A DNA stretch of 46,369 nucleotides from Pseudonocardiales bacterium (GTDB lineage Bacteria > Actinomycetota > Actinomycetes > Mycobacteriales > Jatrophihabitantaceae), in the NCBI GenBank assembly GCA_030840295.1, contig JAVEET010000039.1, positions 1-46,369 on the forward strand, in the 5' to 3' direction. The translations under genes and the position numbers were made by a program. This document shows positions 25,886-38,264 of this stretch, one piece after another. The notes beneath the pieces were generated by a model. That model saw nothing but the letters and a program-made list of their open reading frames with translations. It did not search any database and was not told where the DNA came from. Within the stretch, counting starts at the first letter, position 1, and each line of letters starts with the position of its first letter.

Positions 25886-27964
25886 ATGCAGGACGACACG
25901 AACCCGACGTCCGTCGTAACCAGTCCGACCCCTAAGCAACCGAACGGTGAGCGGGTGCTGGTCGTCCACGACGAGACCTACATCATCGAATTGCTGCAGA
26001 GCTGGCTCAGCTTCCTGGGTTTCGATGTGCGCACGGCGACGACCGGCACCGAGGCCCTCATCCTCGCCGCCGAATTCCGCCCGCACCTGCTCGTGCTGGA
26101 CGTGATGCTGCCCGACATCGACGGCTTCGAGCTGTGCCGGCAGATCCGGCAGGGCGGCGACCGCACCGGCGTCGTTTCCCTCACTGCCCGCAACGGCAGA
26201 GCGGACACCATCGCCGGGCTCACCGTGGGCGGGGACGACTACATCACGAAGCCGTTCGGCCTCGATGAGGTCCTCACCCGAATGCGAGCCGTGCTGCGTC
26301 GTAGCACTCCCACCCCCGACGTAGCCGATCCGGTCGAGAACGGGCTGTTCCGGTTCGTCGATCTCGAACTGGATGAGCTTCGCCACGAGGTCCGACCTGC
26401 GAACGCCCCGGTCGACCTGTCGGCGACCGAGTCCGCCGTGTTGCGCTACCTGATGAGCAATGCCGGGCAGGTCGTCTCGAAGCGCCAGATCGTGTCGTAC
26501 GTCCGTGACCACGGCTTCGGCGGCGATCCCCGCATCGTCGAGAGCTACACCTCGACCTTGCGCAAGAAGGTCGACCACGTCCATCCACCCCTGATCCACA
26601 CCCTTCGGGGCGTCGGCTACAGCCTGCGCCTGGACGCAAGGGCAAACCCGGAAGGTAATTCGATGACAGACATCATTCGCCGTCTCAGAGGCCGACCTCG
26701 CCTCTTGGTGGCCATAGCCGTAGTCGCCGTGTTGGCCATCGGAATCGGCAGCTACGCGGCGACCCGCGGTGGCGGCGCGGCCGCGGCCGCCACGCCGACG
26801 ACGGTGCAGACCGTAGCGACCGGAACGATCAAGCAGAGCGTCTCGGCCACCGGCACGCTGGCACCGACGCAGCAACAGAACCTCACGTTCCCGGTCAGTG
26901 GCCAGGTCACCGCGGTGGATGTCGCTGTCGGCGACCAGGTCAAGTCCGGTCAGGTCCTGGCGACGATCGACGCGTCCTCACTCGCGGTCAACGTGGCCCA
27001 GGCCAAGGCGAGCGTCGCGACCGCGCAGGCCAAGGTCGACGCCGACGCCACCAACTCAGCCACCTCGACCCAGACCTCGGCCGACCAGGCCGCGCTCACC
27101 GCCGCCAACAACCAGCTGACATCGGCGCAGAGCCAGGAGGCCAGCGCCACCATGACCTCGCCGATCGCCGGCGTCGTCGCGACCGTGAACCTTGTCAAGG
27201 GACAGACCGTATCCGGCACTGCTAGCTCTGGCTCTTCCGGGACCTCCGGCACGTCCGGCACCGGCACGTCCGGTGGTGGCGGCGGCGCCACGTCCGGGAC
27301 CTCCGGTACGTCCAGCACCAGCACCACCACGACCGCGCAGATCCTGGTCATCAGCACCAACTCATGGATCGTCAACGCCACCGTCGACGCCACTTCAGTC
27401 GGATTGATCTCCAAGGGCGACCAGGCGCAGCTCACGGTGACCGGCTCGACCGGGACGGTCTACGGCACGATCAGCTCGATCGGGCTGGTCTCGACGTCCA
27501 CATCCACTACGGCGAGCTACCCCGTCGTCGTGGCGGTCACCGGCTCGCCCACCGGCTTGCACGACGGCGCCGGCGTGACGGCCTCACTGCTGTACAAGCA
27601 GCTCAACAACGTCGTCGTAGTCCCCTCCACCGCGCTGCACCGCAACTCCAGCGGGGGCGAGTACGTCGAGCAGGTCACGAACGGTAAGACCGTCCAAACC
27701 ACCGTGAAGGTCGGCGTCGCGTCCGGCGGGCAGACCCAGATCACGTCCGGCCTGAAGGCGGGTGACCAGATCGTCGTCCCGGTTCTTCCGGCGAACTCCC
27801 GGCGTCCCGGAACGACCGGCACTACCACCACGGGTGGCGCGGGCGGCGGCTTCGGCGGCGGCGCGGGCGGCGGCTTCGGCGGCGGCGCAGGCGGCGGCTT
27901 CGGCGGCGGCGGCGCAGGCGGCGGCTTCGGCGGCGGCGGCGCAGGAGGTGGCACCGGTGGCTGA
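25886..27964 (+). CDS. fusion of an OmpR-type response regulator with a membrane-fusion (efflux adaptor) protein
   Basis: One uninterrupted frame of 692 codons with two functions. Residues 22-140 are a receiver domain: phosphoacceptor Asp72 (LVLDVMLPDIDGFE), Thr100 and Lys122 (DDYITKPFG) are present, but the first residue of the acidic pair is His28 (VVHDE). Residues 160-250 are a winged-helix OmpR DNA-binding domain (TLRKKVDHVHPPLIHTLRGV). Residues 273-290 form a TM segment (RPRLLVAIAVVAVLAIGIG) and residues 310-640 an HlyD/MacA-type adaptor with a biotinyl-lipoyl-like segment (VSGQVTAVDVAVGDQVKSGQ), a Gly/Ser/Thr insert and a Gly-rich tail. Met260 (26663) has its own ribosome binding site, so a separate 433-residue adaptor could also be made. 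The topology allows a cytoplasmic DNA-binding head and an external adaptor. Confidence 0.85.
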   Translation: MQDDTNPTSVVTSPTPKQPNGERVLVVHDETYIIELLQSWLSFLGFDVRTATTGTEALILAAEFRPHLLVLDVMLPDIDGFELCRQIRQGGDRTGVVSLTARNGRADTIAGLTVGGDDYITKPFGLDEVLTRMRAVLRRSTPTPDVADPVENGLFRFVDLELDELRHEVRPANAPVDLSATESAVLRYLMSNAGQVVSKRQIVSYVRDHGFGGDPRIVESYTSTLRKKVDHVHPPLIHTLRGVGYSLRLDARANPEGNSMTDIIRRLRGRPRLLVAIAVVAVLAIGIGSYAATRGGGAAAAATPTTVQTVATGTIKQSVSATGTLAPTQQQNLTFPVSGQVTAVDVAVGDQVKSGQVLATIDASSLAVNVAQAKASVATAQAKVDADATNSATSTQTSADQAALTAANNQLTSAQSQEASATMTSPIAGVVATVNLVKGQTVSGTASSGSSGTSGTSGTGTSGGGGGATSGTSGTSSTSTTTTAQILVISTNSWIVNATVDATSVGLISKGDQAQLTVTGSTGTVYGTISSIGLVSTSTSTTASYPVVVAVTGSPTGLHDGAGVTASLLYKQLNNVVVVPSTALHRNSSGGEYVEQVTNGKTVQTTVKVGVASGGQTQITSGLKAGDQIVVPVLPANSRRPGTTGTTTTGGAGGGFGGGAGGGFGGGAGGGFGGGGAGGGFGGGGAGGGTGG
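26650..26665 (+). promoter_or_regulatory. internal ribosome binding site and start codon for the adaptor part
   Basis: GGAAGG at 26650-26655, 7 bases, then ATG at 26663, in frame with the response-regulator reading frame. The following codons give a normal adaptor N-terminus (short basic stretch, then TM segment). It suggests that two genes became one after loss of the regulator's stop codon, and that internal initiation may still occur. Confidence 0.65.
27833..27961 (+). repeat. Gly-rich coding repeat, unit GGGAGGGF
   Basis: Five tandem 21-27-bp units at the end of the fusion gene, encoding variants of GGGAGGGF. The last unit contains the AGGAGG ribosome binding site of the ABC ATPase gene, so expansion or contraction here could affect both genes. 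Confidence 0.85.
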
Positions 27965-28709
27965 CGCACCCACGCTCGCGCGCCACCCGAGTTCCAACAC
28001 GGATCCGGCCGCTGGCCAGCCGGTCATCGAACTGGAAGCTGTCCGCAAGGTCTACCGCACCGGGACGATCGAGTTCGAGGCTGTCCGTAACGTATCTCTG
28101 GTCATCCATCCCGGTGAATACGTCGCCATCATGGGACCGTCCGGCTCAGGCAAGTCGACGTTGATGAACATCCTCGGTTGCCTGGACGTAGCGACCTCAG
28201 GCCGCTACCTCCTCGCCGGCGAGGACGTCAGCGACATGGACGAGGATCAGCTGGCCGACGTCCGCAACCGGCACATCGGGTTCGTGTTCCAGCAATTCAA
28301 CCTACTGCCGTCGCTCAGCGCCTTGCGCAACGTCGAGCTACCGCTCGCCTTCGCAGCGGTGCCCCGCGAGGAACGACGTCGCCGCGGCCGTCTGGCGCTG
28401 GAGCGGGTAGGGCTGGGTGACCGACTCACCCACCGGCCAAATGAGATGTCCGGTGGACAACAGCAACGCGTCGCGGTGGCCCGGGCGCTGGTAAGCGATC
28501 CGGCTCTGGTGCTCGCCGACGAGCCGACCGGCAATCTCGACTCCTCCGCCACCGAGGACGTACTTGAGCTTTTCGGCGAACTGCACGCGCAAGGACGGAC
28601 GGTCGTTTTGATCACCCACGAGGCCGAAGTGGCCGAACGCGCGCAGCGCGTGATCCACATCCGAGACGGCGCAGTCGCGTCCGACGGCTTGACTGGAGGC
28701 ACCCGATGA
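27957..28709 (+). CDS. MacB/LolD-type ABC transporter ATP-binding protein
   Basis: A 250-residue ATPase. Walker A is GPSGSGKSTLMNILG, the Q-loop FVFQQFNLLPSLSALRN, the signature EMSGGQQQRVAVARAL, and Walker B with D-loop ALVLADEPTGNLDSSA, followed by the switch His in VVLITHEAEVAER. The motif pattern is that of the MacB/LolD (ABC3) group, which powers lipid, peptide or drug export with a FtsX-type permease. The GTG at 27957 has AGGAGG 8 bases upstream and overlaps the fusion gene's stop by 8 bases; longer frames lie within the Gly-rich repeat. It is coupled to the permease by an ATGA. Confidence 0.93.
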   Translation: MADAPTLARHPSSNTDPAAGQPVIELEAVRKVYRTGTIEFEAVRNVSLVIHPGEYVAIMGPSGSGKSTLMNILGCLDVATSGRYLLAGEDVSDMDEDQLADVRNRHIGFVFQQFNLLPSLSALRNVELPLAFAAVPREERRRRGRLALERVGLGDRLTHRPNEMSGGQQQRVAVARALVSDPALVLADEPTGNLDSSATEDVLELFGELHAQGRTVVLITHEAEVAERAQRVIHIRDGAVASDGLTGGTR

Positions 28710-29938
28710 CGTGGTCCGACATTCTGGCCAACAGCTGGGACGCAATCCGCAGCCACAAGATGCGCTCGGCGTTGACGTCGCTCGGCATCCTGATCGGTAT
28801 CGCGGCCGTCGTCCTCACCGTGGGGCTGGGCCAAGGCGCGCAACAGAAGGTGTCCAACCAGCTCAACGCGCTCGGCGGCAACCTGCTCATTGTCTCGCCA
28901 GGCAGTTCCACGACCGGCGGCGTACGCGGTGGTTTCGGCTCCGCGTCCACCCTCACGATGGCCGACGCCACCGCACTGTCCTCGCCCGTCGCCGCCCCCA
29001 ATATCGGCGGCGTCGCGCCCATCCTGCAAGCCACGTCCAAGGAACTGGACAACGGCTCGACGAACTGGACGACGACGGTAGTGGGGACGACTTCCTCGTG
29101 GCTCTCGGTGCGCGGACGAACGTTGGCGTCAGGTCGATTCATCTCCGACGCCGATCAGGCCTCGGCCGCAGCCGTGACCGTCCTGGCATCGAGTACGGCC
29201 AGCCAGCTGTTCGGGCCGGTCAATCCGGTCGGGCAGTACGTGACGATCAGCGGGACGCCTTACCAGGTGATCGGCGTGCTGGCCTCGGCCGGATCGGACT
29301 CGACGACCAACCTCGACGACCAGGCGATCATGCCGTTCAGCACGGTATCTCAACGGATCGTCGGCGGAACCAACCGGACGTCGGTGCAGACGATTTACGT
29401 CAAGGCTGCCTCGGCCAGCCAGCTGGCTGGGGCGTACCAGGAGACCCAGACGATCCTGCAGAACCGTCATGCGACGAGTTCATCCTCGACAACGGACTTC
29501 TCGATCACCACGCAACAGTCGGTGCTTTCGACGACGTCCTCGGTCGACAGCACGCTGACCACGCTGTTGATGGGAGCGGCCGCGCTGGCTCTGCTCGTCG
29601 GCGGCATCGGGGTCATGAACATCATGCTGGTGTCGGTCAAGGAACGCACCCGCGAGATCGGGCTCCGCAAAGCACTCGGCGGCACGCCTACCACCATCCG
29701 ACGGCAGTTCTTGTCGGAGGCGTCGATGCTAGGGCTCACCGGCGGCTTGCTCGGTGTCGCCGGGGGCGTCGGTGGAGCGCTGATCCTGCCGCACTTCATT
29801 TCCAATCCCATCACCATCTCGGTGCCGTGGGTGCTGATCTCGATAGCCGTGGCGATCGTCATCGGCGTCGGCTTCGGGGTGTACCCGGCCGTGCGGGCCG
29901 CTCGGTTGTCACCGATCGACGCGCTGCGTAGCGAATGA
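28706..29938 (+). CDS. MacB/FtsX-type ABC transporter permease
   Basis: A 410-residue permease with the MacB layout: one TM helix near residues 20-42 (RSALTSLGILIGIAAVVLTV), a large extracytoplasmic MacB-PCD domain (about 50-285), then three TM helices in the C-terminal FtsX domain. The segment IGVMNIMLVSVKERTREIGLRKALG is the conserved cytoplasmic coupling region and VYPAVRAARLSPIDALRSE the typical C-terminus. The ATG at 28706 overlaps the ATPase stop and has GGAGG 7 bases upstream. It would act with the ATPase and one or both adaptors in export; the cargo is unknown. Confidence 0.93.
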   Translation: MTWSDILANSWDAIRSHKMRSALTSLGILIGIAAVVLTVGLGQGAQQKVSNQLNALGGNLLIVSPGSSTTGGVRGGFGSASTLTMADATALSSPVAAPNIGGVAPILQATSKELDNGSTNWTTTVVGTTSSWLSVRGRTLASGRFISDADQASAAAVTVLASSTASQLFGPVNPVGQYVTISGTPYQVIGVLASAGSDSTTNLDDQAIMPFSTVSQRIVGGTNRTSVQTIYVKAASASQLAGAYQETQTILQNRHATSSSSTTDFSITTQQSVLSTTSSVDSTLTTLLMGAAALALLVGGIGVMNIMLVSVKERTREIGLRKALGGTPTTIRRQFLSEASMLGLTGGLLGVAGGVGGALILPHFISNPITISVPWVLISIAVAIVIGVGFGVYPAVRAARLSPIDALRSE

Positions 29939-29978: not shown

Positions 29979-30815
29979 ATGCTCCAATTCACTACCACCC
30001 GTTCCCGATCCGCGCTGCTGGCGACCGGTCTGGCGCTCGCCGTGGTAACGCTCGCCGCCTGCGGGGGCGGCTCGTCGAGCAGCAGTACGACCCCACCGAG
30101 CTCGGCCGCCGCGGCAAGCGGCGCCGCGGCTGGCGGGACTGCGGGAGGCGGGACCGCGGGAGGCGGGGCGAATGCGCCTGCGGCCTCCGGTCTCATCGCC
30201 AACGTCGCCGCTTCGACCATGCAGGTCCAAAGCCAGCAGAGCGGCCAGATCGCGGTGTCGTGGAGTTCGACGACGTCGTTCACCGACACGGTGTCGACCA
30301 CGGTAAGTGCCATCAAGGCGGGTGACTGCGTGTTCGCCACCGGCCCGAGCGGTAGCTCCGCGTCCGCGACGACGTTCACCGCGGCGACCCTCAGCGTGAC
30401 CCCACCCGTGAACGGGTCCTGCGGTGCGGCCGGCCGCGGCGGTGGGGGCGGCGCCTCAGGGCAGCCGCGATCCGGATTCCCGAGTGGCGGCGCCCGTCCG
30501 TCCGGTGGTGCCGGCGGTGGCGCCGGGGCGGCGGTGGCCAACGGGTCGGTGACGTCGGTGTCTGGATCGACGATCGTGATCGCCTCACAAGCTGGTGGCT
30601 CCAGCCCGACGAGCCGTACCGTCACGGTGGGTGGCAGCACGACGCTCACGACGGTCGCAAAAGCAACCTCGAGCGCGGTGAAGGTTGGCAAGTGCGCGAC
30701 GGCGCAAGGCACTGCTGACTCCACCGGCACCGTAGCGGCCACGACCGTTCGGATCACCGACCCGGTCAACGGGCAGTGCGGCGGCCGCTTCGGGGCAGGA
30801 GCAACCGGTGCCTGA
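29979..30815 (+). CDS. secreted lipoprotein with a duplicated DUF5666-like domain
   Basis: A 278-residue lipoprotein. The signal peptide ends in the lipobox VVTLAACGG (lipidated Cys at about residue 28), followed by a low-complexity Ser/Ala/Gly tether. Two copies of a beta-rich module follow, at about residues 70-145 and 185-270. The second reads VANGSVTSVSGSTIVIASQA, and both end with a Cys pair (KAGDC to VNGSC, and KVGKC to VNGQC), suggesting one disulfide in each. The pattern resembles DUF5666 domains; no function is established for them. A Gly/Pro-rich linker joins the modules. GAAGGA lies 9 bases before the ATG. It is placed between permease and second adaptor and is probably part of the export machinery. 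Confidence 0.8.
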   Translation: MLQFTTTRSRSALLATGLALAVVTLAACGGGSSSSSTTPPSSAAAASGAAAGGTAGGGTAGGGANAPAASGLIANVAASTMQVQSQQSGQIAVSWSSTTSFTDTVSTTVSAIKAGDCVFATGPSGSSASATTFTAATLSVTPPVNGSCGAAGRGGGGGASGQPRSGFPSGGARPSGGAGGGAGAAVANGSVTSVSGSTIVIASQAGGSSPTSRTVTVGGSTTLTTVAKATSSAVKVGKCATAQGTADSTGTVAATTVRITDPVNGQCGGRFGAGATGA

Positions 30816-32790
30816 GATCGCGAAGTCACCTTCCGAACTCCGTCGGGCCAAGCGCGTACGTACCCGCCGCCGCCGCATCGTGGCCGTGGCGACTGGCGTA
30901 GCGGTCGTGGGCGGCGGCACGGCGGCCATCGCCGCGAATGCCGATACCGGCTCATCCCTCCAGTTGGCCACCGTGGAACTCGGCAGCATCACTCAGACCG
31001 TCGAGTCGTCGGGCACGGTTAGCGCCGCGACGAAAGAGACGGCCCAGTTCTCCGTCTCCGGCACGGTGAAGTCGGTGGCAGTAGCCGTGGGCGACAAGGT
31101 GAGCGCCGGGCAGGCCCTCGCCACCTTGAACACCACCGCCCTGCAGACGACCGTGGACTCCGTAGCAGCTTCGTTGGCCGCCGCTCAACAGAAGCTCTCC
31201 GCTGACGCCAGTGGACAGGTTTCGAGCGGAAGCACGGGAACAGGGAGCGCGACTGCGGGGACCGCAAGCGCGACTACGGGGACCGCGAGCGCAACCTTGG
31301 CCGGTGTCGTGGTGAGCACGCCCGTCGATAACGGCGCGACTTCCTCGGCGAACCTTGCCACGACAGCGGCGACGACAGCGGTGACGGCGGCGGTGACGAC
31401 GGGGTCGACGACGGGGTCGACGACGGCAGTGACCAAAGCCCAGGCTGCGGTCATCGCCGCGCAGAAACAGGTCGACACCGGCCAGACCCAACTCGACGCG
31501 GTCCAGAAGACCGTGGACGCCAGTATCACCGAGAACACGAAACTGAGAGACGCGCAGGTCACCGCCTGCGGGACGAGCGCAGGCTCGACGAGCACCACCT
31601 CCGGACCGACCTCGACCGAGTGCTCCACGGCGTCGGCGGACTATGCGGCCTTCGCCGACACGCTCGCGACGGATACCGCCGCCGTCGACACCAAGCTTGC
31701 CGCGCAGGACGGCTATCTGAGGACGCTCGACACGGCGATCGCGACGCTGGACCAAGCGATCACTCAGCTCGGTTCGTCATCGGGCGGGTCCGGTGGTACC
31801 GGCGGGTCCGGTAGTACCGGCGGATCAGGTAGTACCGGCGGATCAGGTAGTACAGGCGGATCAGGTAGTACAGGCGCGTCCGGTAGCGCGGGCGGCTCAG
31901 GTAGCACCGGCGGCTCAGGTAGCGCGGGCGGCGCAGGTGGCGCCGGCGCGACCTCGGGCGCTGCGGCCGGCGGTTCAGGCACGGGATCCGGCAGCGCAAG
32001 TGCCGGCGCCGGCGGCGCAGCCGCGGGCGGGGCCACCTCGGGCAGCGGTGCGTCCGGGGGGGCAAGCGCGAGCGCTCAGCCGGCCAGTGCCGCCCAGCTG
32101 GCAGCCGATCAGGCGTCCATCGATTCGCTGACCGCTCAGCTCAGTGCGGCGAAGCAGAATCTCGCCGCGGCCACGTTGACGAGTCCGTTCTCGGGTACCG
32201 TCGCGGCGATCGGGTACACCCCAGGCGCCTCGTCGAGCGGAGCCTCGATCACGATCGTCGGCTCCGGCATCGAGGGTGTCCAGACCTCGGTGCCACTGGG
32301 CCAGATCGACAGCGTGAAGGTCGGTCAACGAGTAACGGTGGCCGCGGACGGCCAGCCGACGTCGCTGCACGGAACGGTCCAGTCCATCGGACTGTTGAGC
32401 ACGACGTCGGGGTCGAAGACGACCTTCCCGGTGACAGTCCGCTTGGACGCCAACAGCCCCTCGCTCCACGACGGGTCCGGGGCCGACGTCACCATCACGA
32501 CTGGAACGGCGACAGACGTGACCGCAGTGCCGACGTCCGCGATCCACACCGGCGCCGTCGGTACCTACACCGTGGTCGTCGCCAACGGCTCGAAGCAGAG
32601 CACAGTCAGAGTCACAATCGGTATGGCGGGGGCCAACCTCACGCAGATCAAGTCCGGGTTGCAGGCGGGGCAGAAGGTGGTCGTGGCTGACCTGTCCCAG
32701 CCCTTGCCGGGCAGCGCGAGCAGCACCACCACGACGACCGGCCGACCGGGGGGCGGCGCGGCGGGCGGCGGCGCGCGGCCGGGCGGGTGA
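30808..32790 (+). CDS. second membrane-fusion (efflux adaptor) protein with extended Gly/Ser repeats
   Basis: A 660-residue adaptor of the HlyD/MacA family. A basic N-terminus (RRAKRVRTRRRRI) precedes a TM segment (residues 23-42), then a lipoyl-like half (VSGTVKSVAVAVGDKVSAGQ), a long Thr/Ala-rich helical hairpin region (about 105-450), and the second lipoyl half (LTSPFSGTVAAIGYTPG) with beta-barrel domains to the end. The hairpin contains nine 18-bp coding repeats. It is much longer than usual adaptors (about 400 residues). The GTG at 30808 overlaps the lipoprotein stop by 8 bases with GGAG 8 bases upstream. The operon thus carries two adaptors for one ATPase/permease pair. Confidence 0.88.
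   Translation: MPEIAKSPSELRRAKRVRTRRRRIVAVATGVAVVGGGTAAIAANADTGSSLQLATVELGSITQTVESSGTVSAATKETAQFSVSGTVKSVAVAVGDKVSAGQALATLNTTALQTTVDSVAASLAAAQQKLSADASGQVSSGSTGTGSATAGTASATTGTASATLAGVVVSTPVDNGATSSANLATTAATTAVTAAVTTGSTTGSTTAVTKAQAAVIAAQKQVDTGQTQLDAVQKTVDASITENTKLRDAQVTACGTSAGSTSTTSGPTSTECSTASADYAAFADTLATDTAAVDTKLAAQDGYLRTLDTAIATLDQAITQLGSSSGGSGGTGGSGSTGGSGSTGGSGSTGGSGSTGASGSAGGSGSTGGSGSAGGAGGAGATSGAAAGGSGTGSGSASAGAGGAAAGGATSGSGASGGASASAQPASAAQLAADQASIDSLTAQLSAAKQNLAAATLTSPFSGTVAAIGYTPGASSSGASITIVGSGIEGVQTSVPLGQIDSVKVGQRVTVAADGQPTSLHGTVQSIGLLSTTSGSKTTFPVTVRLDANSPSLHDGSGADVTITTGTATDVTAVPTSAIHTGAVGTYTVVVANGSKQSTVRVTIGMAGANLTQIKSGLQAGQKVVVADLSQPLPGSASSTTTTTGRPGGGAAGGGARPGG
31783..31944 (+). repeat. 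nine tandem 18-bp coding repeats (Gly-Ser-Gly-Ser-Thr-Gly type)
   Basis: Units of 18 bases beginning at 31783, of the form GGCGGRTCMGGTAGTACM, encoding repeats of about GGSGST. Units 4 and 5 are identical and the last four are more diverged, a sign of recent expansion at one end. The repeats lie inside the helical-hairpin part of the second adaptor and would form a flexible linker. Confidence 0.9.
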
Positions 32791-33012
32791 CCGGACAGCG
32801 ATCGTTTACGTCAGGTGCTGGCCAACCTGACCGACCAACGCCATCGTGCAAACCCCACCAGGCAATCCTGTCGACGTGACGCTGAGGACAACCCCGACCA
32901 CGGCGCGACTCGAGGTGCACGACCGACGTGCCGAGGTCCGGGTATGGCAGCCGACGATGTCGCGCGGATCTTTGAACGCTGCTACCGCACCGACAGCAGT
33001 CGATCTCGCTGA
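32791..33012 (+). pseudogene. relic of a sensor histidine kinase ATPase domain, frameshifted and truncated
   Basis: It begins at the first codon after the second adaptor's stop. Frame 1 gives DSDRLRQVLANLTD, a typical histidine kinase N-box approach. After one extra C near 32835, frame 2 continues NAIVQTPPGNPVDVTLRTT and then ARLEVHDR. After a second shift near 32925-32940, frame 1 returns with GPGMAADDVARIFERCYRTD, the G1 and F-box region, and ends at a TGA after SSRSR. The G2 box, the dimerisation domain and the sensor part are missing. The order of motifs matches an HATPase domain, so this is a broken gene, probably the lost partner of the response regulator now fused at 25886. It does not look translatable as a kinase. 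Confidence 0.8.
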
Positions 33013-33068
33013 GCGAGGACGACCTTGACAGGATTCAACCGTCCGGACGACCGAATCTTGCCACTGCG

Positions 33069-33998
33069 CTACCTAAGTAAAGAGCCAGCGGCCGACAACC
33101 GGTCGATCTCGGCCGGTGTCAGCGTCAGCGTGGCGGCAGGCAGGATCTGCTCGAGTTGCTCGATGGTGCGAGCGCTGGCAATCGGGGCGACGACCCGCGG
33201 GCGGGCGAGCAGCCAGGCGAGCGCGGCGGCGGCCACCGTGGTGTTGTGGGCCGCAGCGATCTCATCAAGTGCCTCGAGCACCGCCGCGCCACCCTGGTCG
33301 AGATACGCCCGCGCGCCCTCGGCACGCTGGGACTCGACGACCTCGCTGCCCGCCCGGTACTTGCCGGTCAAGAAGCCCTTGGCCAGCGCATAGTAGGGCA
33401 GCACGGCGAGATCCCAGGCCTCGGCGACGGGCAGCAGCGTGCGCTCGAAGTCCCTCTCGACGAGGTTGTAGTGCGGCTGCAGGACAGTGAACTCGGCGAG
33501 CCCGTGATTACGCTGGAAATCGAGGGCGGCCGTGAGCCGCTCCGGCGTGTAGTTGGAGGCGCCGAGGTGGCGCACGGTGCCCGCTTGGACGAGCGCGTCG
33601 AAGGCGAGCAGCGATTCCTCAAGCGGCGTCTCTTCATCGTCGAAGTGCGCGTAATAGAGGTCGATGCGGTCGGTCTGCAGTCGCTCGAGGGAGTCCAGCG
33701 CCTCGCGCTTGATTGTTTCCGCGCGCAGATTGCGGACCGGTCCGCGGCCGCCGCCGACCTTCGTGGCCACGACGATCTGCTCGCGGTTGCCCCGGTCGGC
33801 TATCCAGCGCCCGATGACCGTCTCGGAGCGGCCGTGCTCGAGCAGGTAGGAGTTCGCGGTGTCGATGAAGTTGCCGCCCGCGCCGGCGTACGCGTCAAGC
33901 ACGGCGCGGGACTGAGGCTCGTCGGCGGTCCAGCCGAACACGTTGCCACCGAGGCAGATGGGAAAGACGTCGAGGTCAGTACGTCCGAGAGGGGCCAT
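33069..33998 (-). CDS. aldo/keto reductase
   Basis: A 309-residue NADPH-dependent aldo/keto reductase with a TIM-barrel fold. The catalytic tetrad is visible: Asp and Tyr in FIDTANSYLLEHGRSE, Lys in IVVATKVGGG and His in LYYAHFDDE. The C-terminal NADPH-binding segment is VVAPIASARTIEQLEQIL. It looks like the AKR11/YajO-type general oxidoreductases that reduce small aldehydes and ketones; the true substrate is unknown. The start is the ATG at 33998, which opens MAPLGRTDLDVFPICLGGN, the usual first strand. It is convergent with the adaptor operon and stands alone. Confidence 0.92.
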   Translation of the reverse strand: MAPLGRTDLDVFPICLGGNVFGWTADEPQSRAVLDAYAGAGGNFIDTANSYLLEHGRSETVIGRWIADRGNREQIVVATKVGGGRGPVRNLRAETIKREALDSLERLQTDRIDLYYAHFDDEETPLEESLLAFDALVQAGTVRHLGASNYTPERLTAALDFQRNHGLAEFTVLQPHYNLVERDFERTLLPVAEAWDLAVLPYYALAKGFLTGKYRAGSEVVESQRAEGARAYLDQGGAAVLEALDEIAAAHNTTVAAAALAWLLARPRVVAPIASARTIEQLEQILPAATLTLTPAEIDRLSAAGSLLR

Positions 33999-36062: not shown

Positions 36063-38264
36063 GTGAGGGGATGGCGAGCGCTGTTGAGCGGTGAGGAGCT
36101 GCGCGTGCTGGCCGAAGAACAGGCCGCGTTGCGCCGGGTCGCCACGCTGGTGGCACGTGGGTTGCCGCCGGAGCAGGTGTTCGCCGCGGTCACCGAGGAA
36201 GCCGGGCGGCTGCTTGGCGTCGAGTTCGCGACCTTGGGCCGCTACGAGTCCGATGACACCATGACCGTCGTTGTCCACTGGAGCAGGACCGGCGACTTCG
36301 CCCCTCCTGTTGGCAGCAGGCTGATCCTTGGGGGCACCAACGTCAGCACGCTCGTCTTCCGGACCGGCCGTGCGGCACGGATCGAGAGCTATGCCGATGC
36401 CTCTGGGCCGCTCGGTGTCGCAGCCCACGAGGATGGGGTCGGCTCAGGTGTCGGGACACCGGTCATCGTCGCTGGGCGCCTGTGGGGGGTGATGGCCGCC
36501 TACTCACCCCTGGGCCGGTCGATGCCGGCGGACGCCGAGGCCCGCCTGGCCAACTTCACCGAGCTGGTGGCAACAGCAATCGCGAACGCGGACAGTCGCG
36601 CCGAACTCGCCCGGCTGGCCGAGGAACAGGTGGCGTTGCGCCGCGTCGCGACGCTGGTAGCCCGTGGGACGCCGCCAGAGCAGGTGTTCGCCGCGGTCAC
36701 CGAGGAGGCCGGGCGACTGCTAGGGACGGGCCTGGCCGTGATGTCCCGTTACGACAGCGATGACACGGTGACTATCTTGGCTAGCTGGGCCGCTAACGGC
36801 GAGCACCCATTGGTACGGGGTCCATGGCCACTCGAAGAGGGCGAACTGGCATCAAGGATCTTCAGGACGGGTCGACCCGTCCGGACAGACGACTACGCCG
36901 GCGTTCCCGGGCGTATCGCGGCGTTCATTCGAGAAGAGCTCGGGATTCGCTCAGCGGTCGGCAACCCGATCGTCGTGGAGGGGCGGCTGTGGGGCGCTCT
37001 GATCGTCCACTCGAAGCAGACCGACCCGCCGTTCCCCCCGGACGCTGAATCGCGTCTCGCCGGCTTCACGGAGCTGGTCGCCACGGCGCTCGCGAACGCC
37101 GAGAGCCGCGGCAAGCTGGCCCGGCTGGCCGAGGAGCAGGCGGCGTTACGGCGGGTCGCGACGTTGGTGGCGCACGGGGTGCCGCCGGAGGAGGTGTTCG
37201 CAGCGGTTGTCGAGGAGGTCGCGGGCCTGCTTCGAGTCGAGTTCGCGGCCATGAGCCGATTCGAGTCGGACGGCACGATGACCACCGTCGCGACCTCGAA
37301 TCAAATAGGCGAGCGCTTCCCCGTTGGCGGTCGGTGGCCCCTCGAGGGGAAGAACGTCAGCACGATCGTCGCGCAGAGCGGCCGTCCGGCCCGGATGGAC
37401 AGCTACGCCGATGCTTCCGGACCACTCGGTAGCGCCGTCCGCAGTTGGGGCTTCGGCTCATCGATCGGGACGCCGGTCATCGTCGAGGGGCGTCTTTGGG
37501 GCATGATGGCCAGCTACTCACCGCTGGGCAAGCCGCTGCCGCCGGCGGACACCGAGGCGCGCCTGGCCAACTTCACCGAGCTGGTGGCGACGGCGATCGC
37601 GAACGCAGAGAGCCAGGCCGAGCTGATGGCCTCGCGCGCACGGATCGTCGCCGCCGCGGATGAGACGCGGCGGCGGATCGAGCGCGATCTGCACGACGGC
37701 ATCCAGCAGCGGCTCGTTTCGCTCGGATTGGAGCTGCGCACGGCACAGTCGGGGGTGCCTTTGCAGCTCGACGAGCTCGCAGGCGCGTTGTCGCATGCTG
37801 CTGACGGGCTGGCGAGCGTGTTCGACGAACTGCGGGAGATCTCCCACGGCATTCACCCCGCGATCCTGTCCAAGGGCGGCCTGGCGCCGGCGCTCAACGC
37901 GCTGCGCCGCCGTTCGGCCGTACCGGTCGAGCTGGACCTGCACGCCGAGCGGCGGCTGCCAGAGCCAATCGAAGTCGCGGCGTACTACGTGGTGTCAGAA
38001 GCGTTGACAAACGCCGCCAAGCACTCGCAAGCATCGGTCGTGAACGTCGAACTCGACGCCCGCGACACGGTCTTGCGGTTGACGATCCGCGACGACGGGA
38101 TCGGCGGCGCTGACCCCCGCCAGGGGTCCGGACTGCTCGGGCTCAGGGACCGAATCGAAGCGCTCGGCGGCACGCTCCACGTCACCAGCCCTGCTGGCAC
38201 CGGCACCACGCTGCTCATCGAGATCCCGGTCGAAGGCGCTGTGCAGCGTGGTAGGCGGCAGTAA
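36063..38264 (+). CDS. orphan sensor histidine kinase with three tandem GAF domains
   Basis: A 733-residue cytoplasmic kinase without TM segments. Three GAF repeats start at residues 17, 186 and 356, each opening with LAEEQxALRRVATLVA and closing with FTELVATAxANA. A HisKA_3 domain follows with phosphoacceptor His544 in RRRIERDLHDGIQQRL. The HATPase has the N-box SEALTNAAKHS (about 647) and G-box DDGIGGADPRQGSGLLGLRD. It is of the NarL-partner (DevS/NreB) type. No response regulator gene is adjacent. The GTG at 36063 is the outermost start; the GTG at 36105 has GAGGAG 6 bases upstream and is the better supported start (719 residues). The GAF ligand is unknown. Confidence 0.9.
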   Translation: MRGWRALLSGEELRVLAEEQAALRRVATLVARGLPPEQVFAAVTEEAGRLLGVEFATLGRYESDDTMTVVVHWSRTGDFAPPVGSRLILGGTNVSTLVFRTGRAARIESYADASGPLGVAAHEDGVGSGVGTPVIVAGRLWGVMAAYSPLGRSMPADAEARLANFTELVATAIANADSRAELARLAEEQVALRRVATLVARGTPPEQVFAAVTEEAGRLLGTGLAVMSRYDSDDTVTILASWAANGEHPLVRGPWPLEEGELASRIFRTGRPVRTDDYAGVPGRIAAFIREELGIRSAVGNPIVVEGRLWGALIVHSKQTDPPFPPDAESRLAGFTELVATALANAESRGKLARLAEEQAALRRVATLVAHGVPPEEVFAAVVEEVAGLLRVEFAAMSRFESDGTMTTVATSNQIGERFPVGGRWPLEGKNVSTIVAQSGRPARMDSYADASGPLGSAVRSWGFGSSIGTPVIVEGRLWGMMASYSPLGKPLPPADTEARLANFTELVATAIANAESQAELMASRARIVAAADETRRRIERDLHDGIQQRLVSLGLELRTAQSGVPLQLDELAGALSHAADGLASVFDELREISHGIHPAILSKGGLAPALNALRRRSAVPVELDLHAERRLPEPIEVAAYYVVSEALTNAAKHSQASVVNVELDARDTVLRLTIRDDGIGGADPRQGSGLLGLRDRIEALGGTLHVTSPAGTGTTLLIEIPVEGAVQRGRRQ
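36111..37637 (+). repeat. triplicated GAF-coding segment, period 507-510 bp
   Basis: Repeat starts at 36111, 36618 and 37128. Nucleotide similarity is strongest at unit borders (the LAEEQ and FTELVATA segments). Repeats 1 and 3 share GTNVS/GKNVS and SYADASGPLG and are closer to each other than to repeat 2, which suggests that duplication did not occur in simple serial order. Confidence 0.85.

Follow-up and report, generated by a model that had tools for sequence, protein, structure and literature searches.

Remains of a sensor histidine kinase behind a predicted MacB-type efflux operon, with erosion of the partner response regulator, in a Pseudonocardiales bacterium

The window analyzed here is a whole contig of 46,369 nucleotides (C244) from a Pseudonocardiales genome of 4.65 Mb (G000; 375 contigs, 98.5% complete), and its positions 32,793–33,078 on the forward strand are a histidine-kinase pseudogene. 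We read this remnant, with a probability of about 0.93, as the non-functional leftover of a sensor histidine kinase that controlled the predicted MacB-type efflux operon in front of it, and whose partner, the response regulator that opens this operon, is decaying. The evidence comes from comparison with the kinase genes of related genomes, from the pairing of kinase and regulator in more distant relatives, and from relative rates of change in the regulator and the transporter genes.

The operon on the forward strand begins with a response regulator that has REC and Trans_reg_C domains and has lost its own stop codon (25,886–26,662), fused in frame to a first adaptor of the HlyD type (26,663–27,964). 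An ABC transporter ATPase follows (27,960–28,709, the start being approximate), then a MacB-type permease with MacB_PCD and FtsX domains (28,706–29,938), a protein rich in Gly and Ala that has no Pfam match at E values up to 0.001 and occurs in the operon of relatives too (29,979–30,815), and a second HlyD-type adaptor (30,808–32,790), whose stop codon forms the left edge of the kinase deletion. Behind the kinase remnant, on the opposite strand, lies an aldo/keto reductase (33,069–33,998; PF00248), which is also the neighbor in the close relative G005. Domain content, i.e. the PF00005 ATPase, the PF12704/PF02687 permease and HlyD_3 in both adaptors, makes the operon a predicted MacB-type efflux system. 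Both adaptors contain long in-frame repeats rich in Gly and Ser or in Gly and Phe (about 31,770–32,060 and 27,800–27,960), and Gly-rich tails similar to the repeats of both occur in relatives; such stretches may be a cause of nearby contig breaks. There is also a paralogous efflux operon (permease 58%) in G000 (locus L133 on C158) and in G005 (L132 on C360), which is without the kinase-regulator pair, and L133 has a different regulator (33%) upstream on the opposite strand.

The initial annotation had described a kinase relic at 32,791–33,012 in which the ATPase-domain motifs appear in order but in alternating frames, and the translations agree with it, with DRLRQVLANLTD and GPGMAADDVARIFERCYRTD sharing one frame and NAIVQTPPGNPV lying in another. 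The conserved boxes of HATPase_c are named N, G1, F and G2. The profile check that had been suggested, with PF02518, gave matches in the translated frames. A single frame over 32,791–33,014 scored 20.4 bits (E 7.5e-4), under the cut-off of 26.4, and the three segments, concatenated with an X at each break, scored 38.5 bits (E 1.7e-9), over the cut-off, across positions 2–67 of the 111 in the profile. Since the choice of frames inflates the joined score, a separate control profile was made from 42 stretches from kinase loci, chosen by similarity to the joined peptide, together with 2000 dinucleotide shuffles of the region, each taken in six frames. With this profile the two frames of the real region scored 37.2 and 14.3 bits and the highest-scoring shuffle 5.9 (0 of 2000 reached the real score); elsewhere in the window only the kinase gene at 36,063–38,261 exceeded 10 bits. 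That gene encodes a sensor kinase in which three GAF domains in tandem precede HisKA_3 and HATPase_c. The HATPase_c fragment of the pseudogene, from N box to F box in three frame segments, occupies 32,793–33,009 and is 89% identical in DNA to the G005 kinase over 217 columns. The location first assigned to the relic was correct and its extent needs to be enlarged slightly: in the alignment to G005, kinase-derived DNA runs from 32,793 to about 33,078.

Relatives came from genus and family searches of 9 and 24 genomes respectively, the own genome counted in. Comparison of the locus, likewise proposed at the outset, yielded a full-length kinase gene in G005, at exactly the site of the remnant, and an intact one past adaptor 2 in G020. 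G005 is the nearer of the two, with a permease 99.5% identical in protein, and its kinase gene is flanked by the same adaptor 2 and the same aldo/keto reductase. Its frame is itself broken, a point absent from the initial annotation: HAMP ends one open reading frame, and HisKA with a complete HATPase_c is found in the next. The break is an 8-bp tandem duplication (positions 1563–1578 of L131, on G005 contig C343) inside HAMP of an otherwise full-length frame, and is either a second, independent lesion of the same gene in the sister lineage or an assembly error. The G020 kinase, downstream of adaptor 2, is one intact frame of 486 aa with HAMP, HisKA and HATPase_c; it is 87% identical to that of G005 in the C-terminal part, and dN/dS between the two in the HKN stretch of the kinase is 0.194. 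The G020 operon is split between contig C330, from the regulator to the first part of adaptor 2, and contig C137, from the last part of adaptor 2 to the kinase, and the split adaptor gene suggests that the two are linked. An extra open reading frame of about 258 residues with no Pfam match lies between adaptor 2 and the kinase in G020 (about 1400–2173 of L212, on C137) and is absent in G005. An intact kinase past adaptor 2 was seen in G020 only, the nearest relative being frame-broken. Among the 40 of 177 candidates scored in the assembled own genome no second copy of the kinase DNA was found, and, the remnant itself aside, none came closer to the G005 kinase DNA than 71% over 176 bp, so that an origin of the remnant as a duplicate of another kinase in this genome was rejected. 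The best own kinase, from 30 loci compared out of 39 PF02518 matches, reached 40% against the remnant.

Alignment to these relatives resolves the lesions. Two bases past the stop codon of adaptor 2 (32,791–32,793), 1128 bp of the G005 gene are absent, in agreement with the earlier proposal that the relic begins right behind that stop because the rest of the gene had been deleted. This 5′ deletion took out the start codon, the membrane segments, HAMP, and HisKA with the phospho-acceptor His, HisKA being present in both G005 and G020. Relative to both genomes a 1-bp insertion (within 32,829–32,834) produces the first frame change and an 8-bp insertion (32,923–32,930, its placement ambiguous by a few bases) the second, and together +1 and +8 restore the frame, as expected of the two compensating frameshifts described before. 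A second deletion, seen against G005 and previously overlooked, removed 121 bp at 33,009/33,010 and with them the G2 box; beyond it the C-terminal tail of the kinase (33,010–33,078) reaches the equivalent of the stop codon and runs into the end of the aldo/keto reductase gene. What is left has N, G1 and F regions readable over two frames, and in place of a single open reading frame with a start codon it has three frame segments. More complete orthologues at the locus in G005 and G020, together with disabling lesions here, are what identifies it as a pseudogene.

Substitutions have accumulated as well. In the 69 comparable codons the remnant has Pro for Leu, Gln for His and Cys for Phe at positions where G005 and G020 share the residue. 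Its dN/dS to G005 is 0.254 (69 codons), which is above four operon stretches (permease 0.01 and ABC gene 0.089, i.e. a transporter under constraint, the end of adaptor 2 0.104 and the Gly/Ala-rich protein 0.129), close to the 0.27 of the aldo/keto reductase, and well short of 1; this is suggestive, being compatible with a young pseudogene, and is not decisive. Synonymous divergence from G005 was 0.16–0.31 in five of the six stretches compared. The initial annotation had called the change recent, and this holds in the relative sense that the deletion postdates the split from G005, but the data permit no absolute date. The sixth stretch, the aldo/keto reductase at 33,069–33,998, had a dS of 0.10, less than half that of the operon genes (0.23–0.31), which could reflect recombination or a different local rate.

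In G012 (L188) and G015 (L193) the orthologous kinase is positioned directly ahead of the orthologous regulator, and adaptor 1, the ABC gene and the permease follow. Identities are about 60% for the C-terminal part of the kinase, about 50% for its N-terminal part and 60% for the regulator. Since kinase and regulator orthologues are adjacent in both genomes, the two are partners, and by orthology and gene position the upstream response regulator of the window is the partner of the lost kinase. This bears out the earlier suggestion that kinase loss left the fused regulator an orphan, the kinase gene being deleted past adaptor 2. The same kinase-regulator order occurs in G010 on a short contig, and in G008 the closest same-genus regulator outside the own genome (50%) adjoins one of the closest same-genus kinases (55%). 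The G020 regulator (77–79% identity) comes first in its operon, and its contig has no kinase in front of it. In G000, G005 and G020 the kinase is positioned past adaptor 2, and it would have been relocated to this site. Among the other operon relatives, L133, L187 and L190 have nearby regulators of low similarity only (33–37%), and no regulator was recognized in the stretches examined of L132, L134, L135, L189, L191 and L192, some of which are cut off by a contig end; for L178 and L179 the sequence is too short to judge. The G005 regulator falls in an assembly gap, flanked by one contig that ends in a LacI gene and another that ends in the ABC gene. Similarity to the regulator and similarity to the remnant were weakly rank-correlated over 80 loci (rho 0.22, p 0.14; 48 of the 80 with a kinase match near the regulator), and the weakness of this correlation is why it was left out of the pairing evidence.

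The regulator is eroding and changes at an unusually high rate, a pattern that had escaped the initial annotation. In a relative-rate test of G000 against G020, at sites where the outgroups G012 and G015 agree, the regulator had 16 changes private to G000 and 2 private to G020 (p 0.0013). With single outgroups the counts were 22:6 and 20:5, and with the distant outgroup G008 the excess shrank to 14:8. The same test gave 7:12 for adaptor 1, 4:11 for the ABC gene and 8:4 for the permease, none a significant excess, and with other outgroups 3:11 for the ABC gene and 5:5 for the permease; with G015 as sole outgroup the permease leaned in the same direction as the regulator (16:7, p 0.09). By Fisher's test the regulator differed from the three transporter genes pooled (p 6.5e-4) and not significantly from the permease alone (p 0.18). 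Six columns invariant in nine other regulators were changed in G000 and none in G020, these being F to S, W to R, Y to H and D to G in the DNA-binding domain and F to S and A to T in the receiver. The first residue of the acidic pocket is His in G000 and Asp or Glu in the other regulators. The frame is uninterrupted, the phospho-acceptor Asp and the Thr and Lys are kept, and both Pfam domains match. We infer from these comparisons that the regulator is losing constraint, and with it probably function, after loss of the kinase, and that the transporter is retained.

The fusion to adaptor 1 was an event separate from kinase loss, which had not been recognized initially. Regulator stop and adaptor start overlap as ATGA in G020 and G015, and the genes are apart in G012; in the window one extra base just ahead of the adaptor ATG, at a junction spanning 26,650–26,662, puts the regulator in frame with adaptor 1, so that the fusion results from a separate 1-bp insertion in the stop/start overlap. 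This 1-bp difference could be a consensus error. The fused open reading frame extends over 25,886–27,964 (692 aa). The four closest regulators from 397 order-level genomes differ in the length of their open frame, with 709 codons in the window compared with 284 in G020, 263 in G015 and 271 in G012, and in a contig search with the fused protein relatives match mainly over the regulator part. Long open frames were also present in some more distant regulator matches from the 397 genomes.

It is conceivable that the fused product is a new working regulator, in which a winged helix anchored in the membrane through the adaptor senses substrate without a kinase, presumably in the manner of ToxR or CadC, and that this made the kinase dispensable. 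The fused frame is indeed open over its whole length, and Pfam still recognizes the receiver and the DNA-binding domain, but invariant residues have been altered in both of these domains, the rate excess sits in the regulator part rather than in adaptor 1, and adaptor 1 has retained its own ATG at 26,663 and the GGAAGG preceding it. Moreover a single base separates the fusion from what is seen in G020 and G015. We consider such a regulator unlikely, and place equally little weight on the related idea that kinase loss was tolerated because the fused regulator had become kinase-independent and membrane-bound, with the transport subunit itself as the sensor.

An assembly or sequencing error at this point of the contig, hiding an intact kinase in the organism, is very unlikely. 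The assembly is fragmented (375 contigs), and the single-base indels at the regulator/adaptor junction and in the remnant could be consensus errors, but deletions of 1128 and 121 bp and an insertion of 8 bp are no base-call errors, the contig is continuous with gene order as in G005 on both sides, the remnant also carries substitutions where G005 and G020 agree, and no stray piece of the kinase turned up elsewhere in the assembly among the 40 of 177 candidates scored. Nor does the remnant seem to serve on its own. A stop-free frame of 73 residues spans it and the two indels cancel in frame, which might point to a small ATP-binding protein made, for example, by frameshifting translation; we regard this as extremely improbable given that the start codon of the kinase is deleted, the central segment lies in another frame, the G2 box has been lost, and residues that G005 and G020 retain have been exchanged. 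Programmed frameshifting or a small functional ATPase was rejected as a candidate with the original start, HisKA and G2 box all missing.

The preferred reading remains a kinase destroyed and a partner regulator in decay. Since diverging from the G005 lineage, the kinase gene has lost 1128 bp in its 5′ part, together with 121 bp close to the 3′ end, and has gained the 1-bp and 8-bp insertions. In the alignment the membrane segments, the G2 box and the phospho-acceptor histidine are all absent, so that no protein derived from the remnant can phosphorylate the regulator. The partner regulator at the head of the operon is probably unphosphorylated now, its constraint appears to be fading, and the separate 1-bp insertion joined it to adaptor 1. 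The transporter genes appear constrained, and the pump is probably still produced, either constitutively or through some other control.

The closest comparison is with the system in G020, G012 and G015, in which a kinase with HAMP, HisKA and HATPase_c and an OmpR-type regulator belong to a MacB-type ABC efflux operon, with kinase, regulator and efflux genes orthologous to those of the window; in contrast, the window keeps only the middle of HATPase_c and the C-terminal tail, out of frame. Events of this type, i.e. loss of two-component genes, are already known, and the present one is well resolved. Two-component pseudogenes are described for Francisella, some with partners left as orphans (PMC6584805), for Brucella ovis, where 4 of 47 two-component genes have frameshifts (PMC10592609), and for myxobacteria, in which small indels and frameshifts produced two-component pseudogenes and loss was lineage-specific (PMC4603909). 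As in the window, the genes in these cases were pseudogenized by a frameshift or small indel; the window differs in having lesions resolved against a close relative, a measured erosion of the orphan regulator and a fusion of this regulator to a transporter subunit. Among Gram-positive MacB-type systems, one review covers YknXYZ, which has an adaptor, and BceAB, which has a co-evolving two-component system (PMC5985334). Their likeness to the window would lie in a MacB-type ABC transporter that is accompanied by an adaptor in the one case and by a co-evolving two-component system in the other; the operon of the window is different in having two adaptors and a lost kinase. No publication title on this locus was found among the literature matches listed, which is weak evidence of absence.

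The locus provides a snapshot of a two-component system vanishing from an operon that is itself retained, with the kinase destroyed, the regulator eroding and fused by one base, and the transporter genes constrained. In the sister species G005 the kinase frame is likewise broken, and in the further relative G020 the gene is intact. Finally, some caution is due in annotation, where a “regulator-adaptor fusion protein” at this locus is probably a product of decay and not a new architecture.
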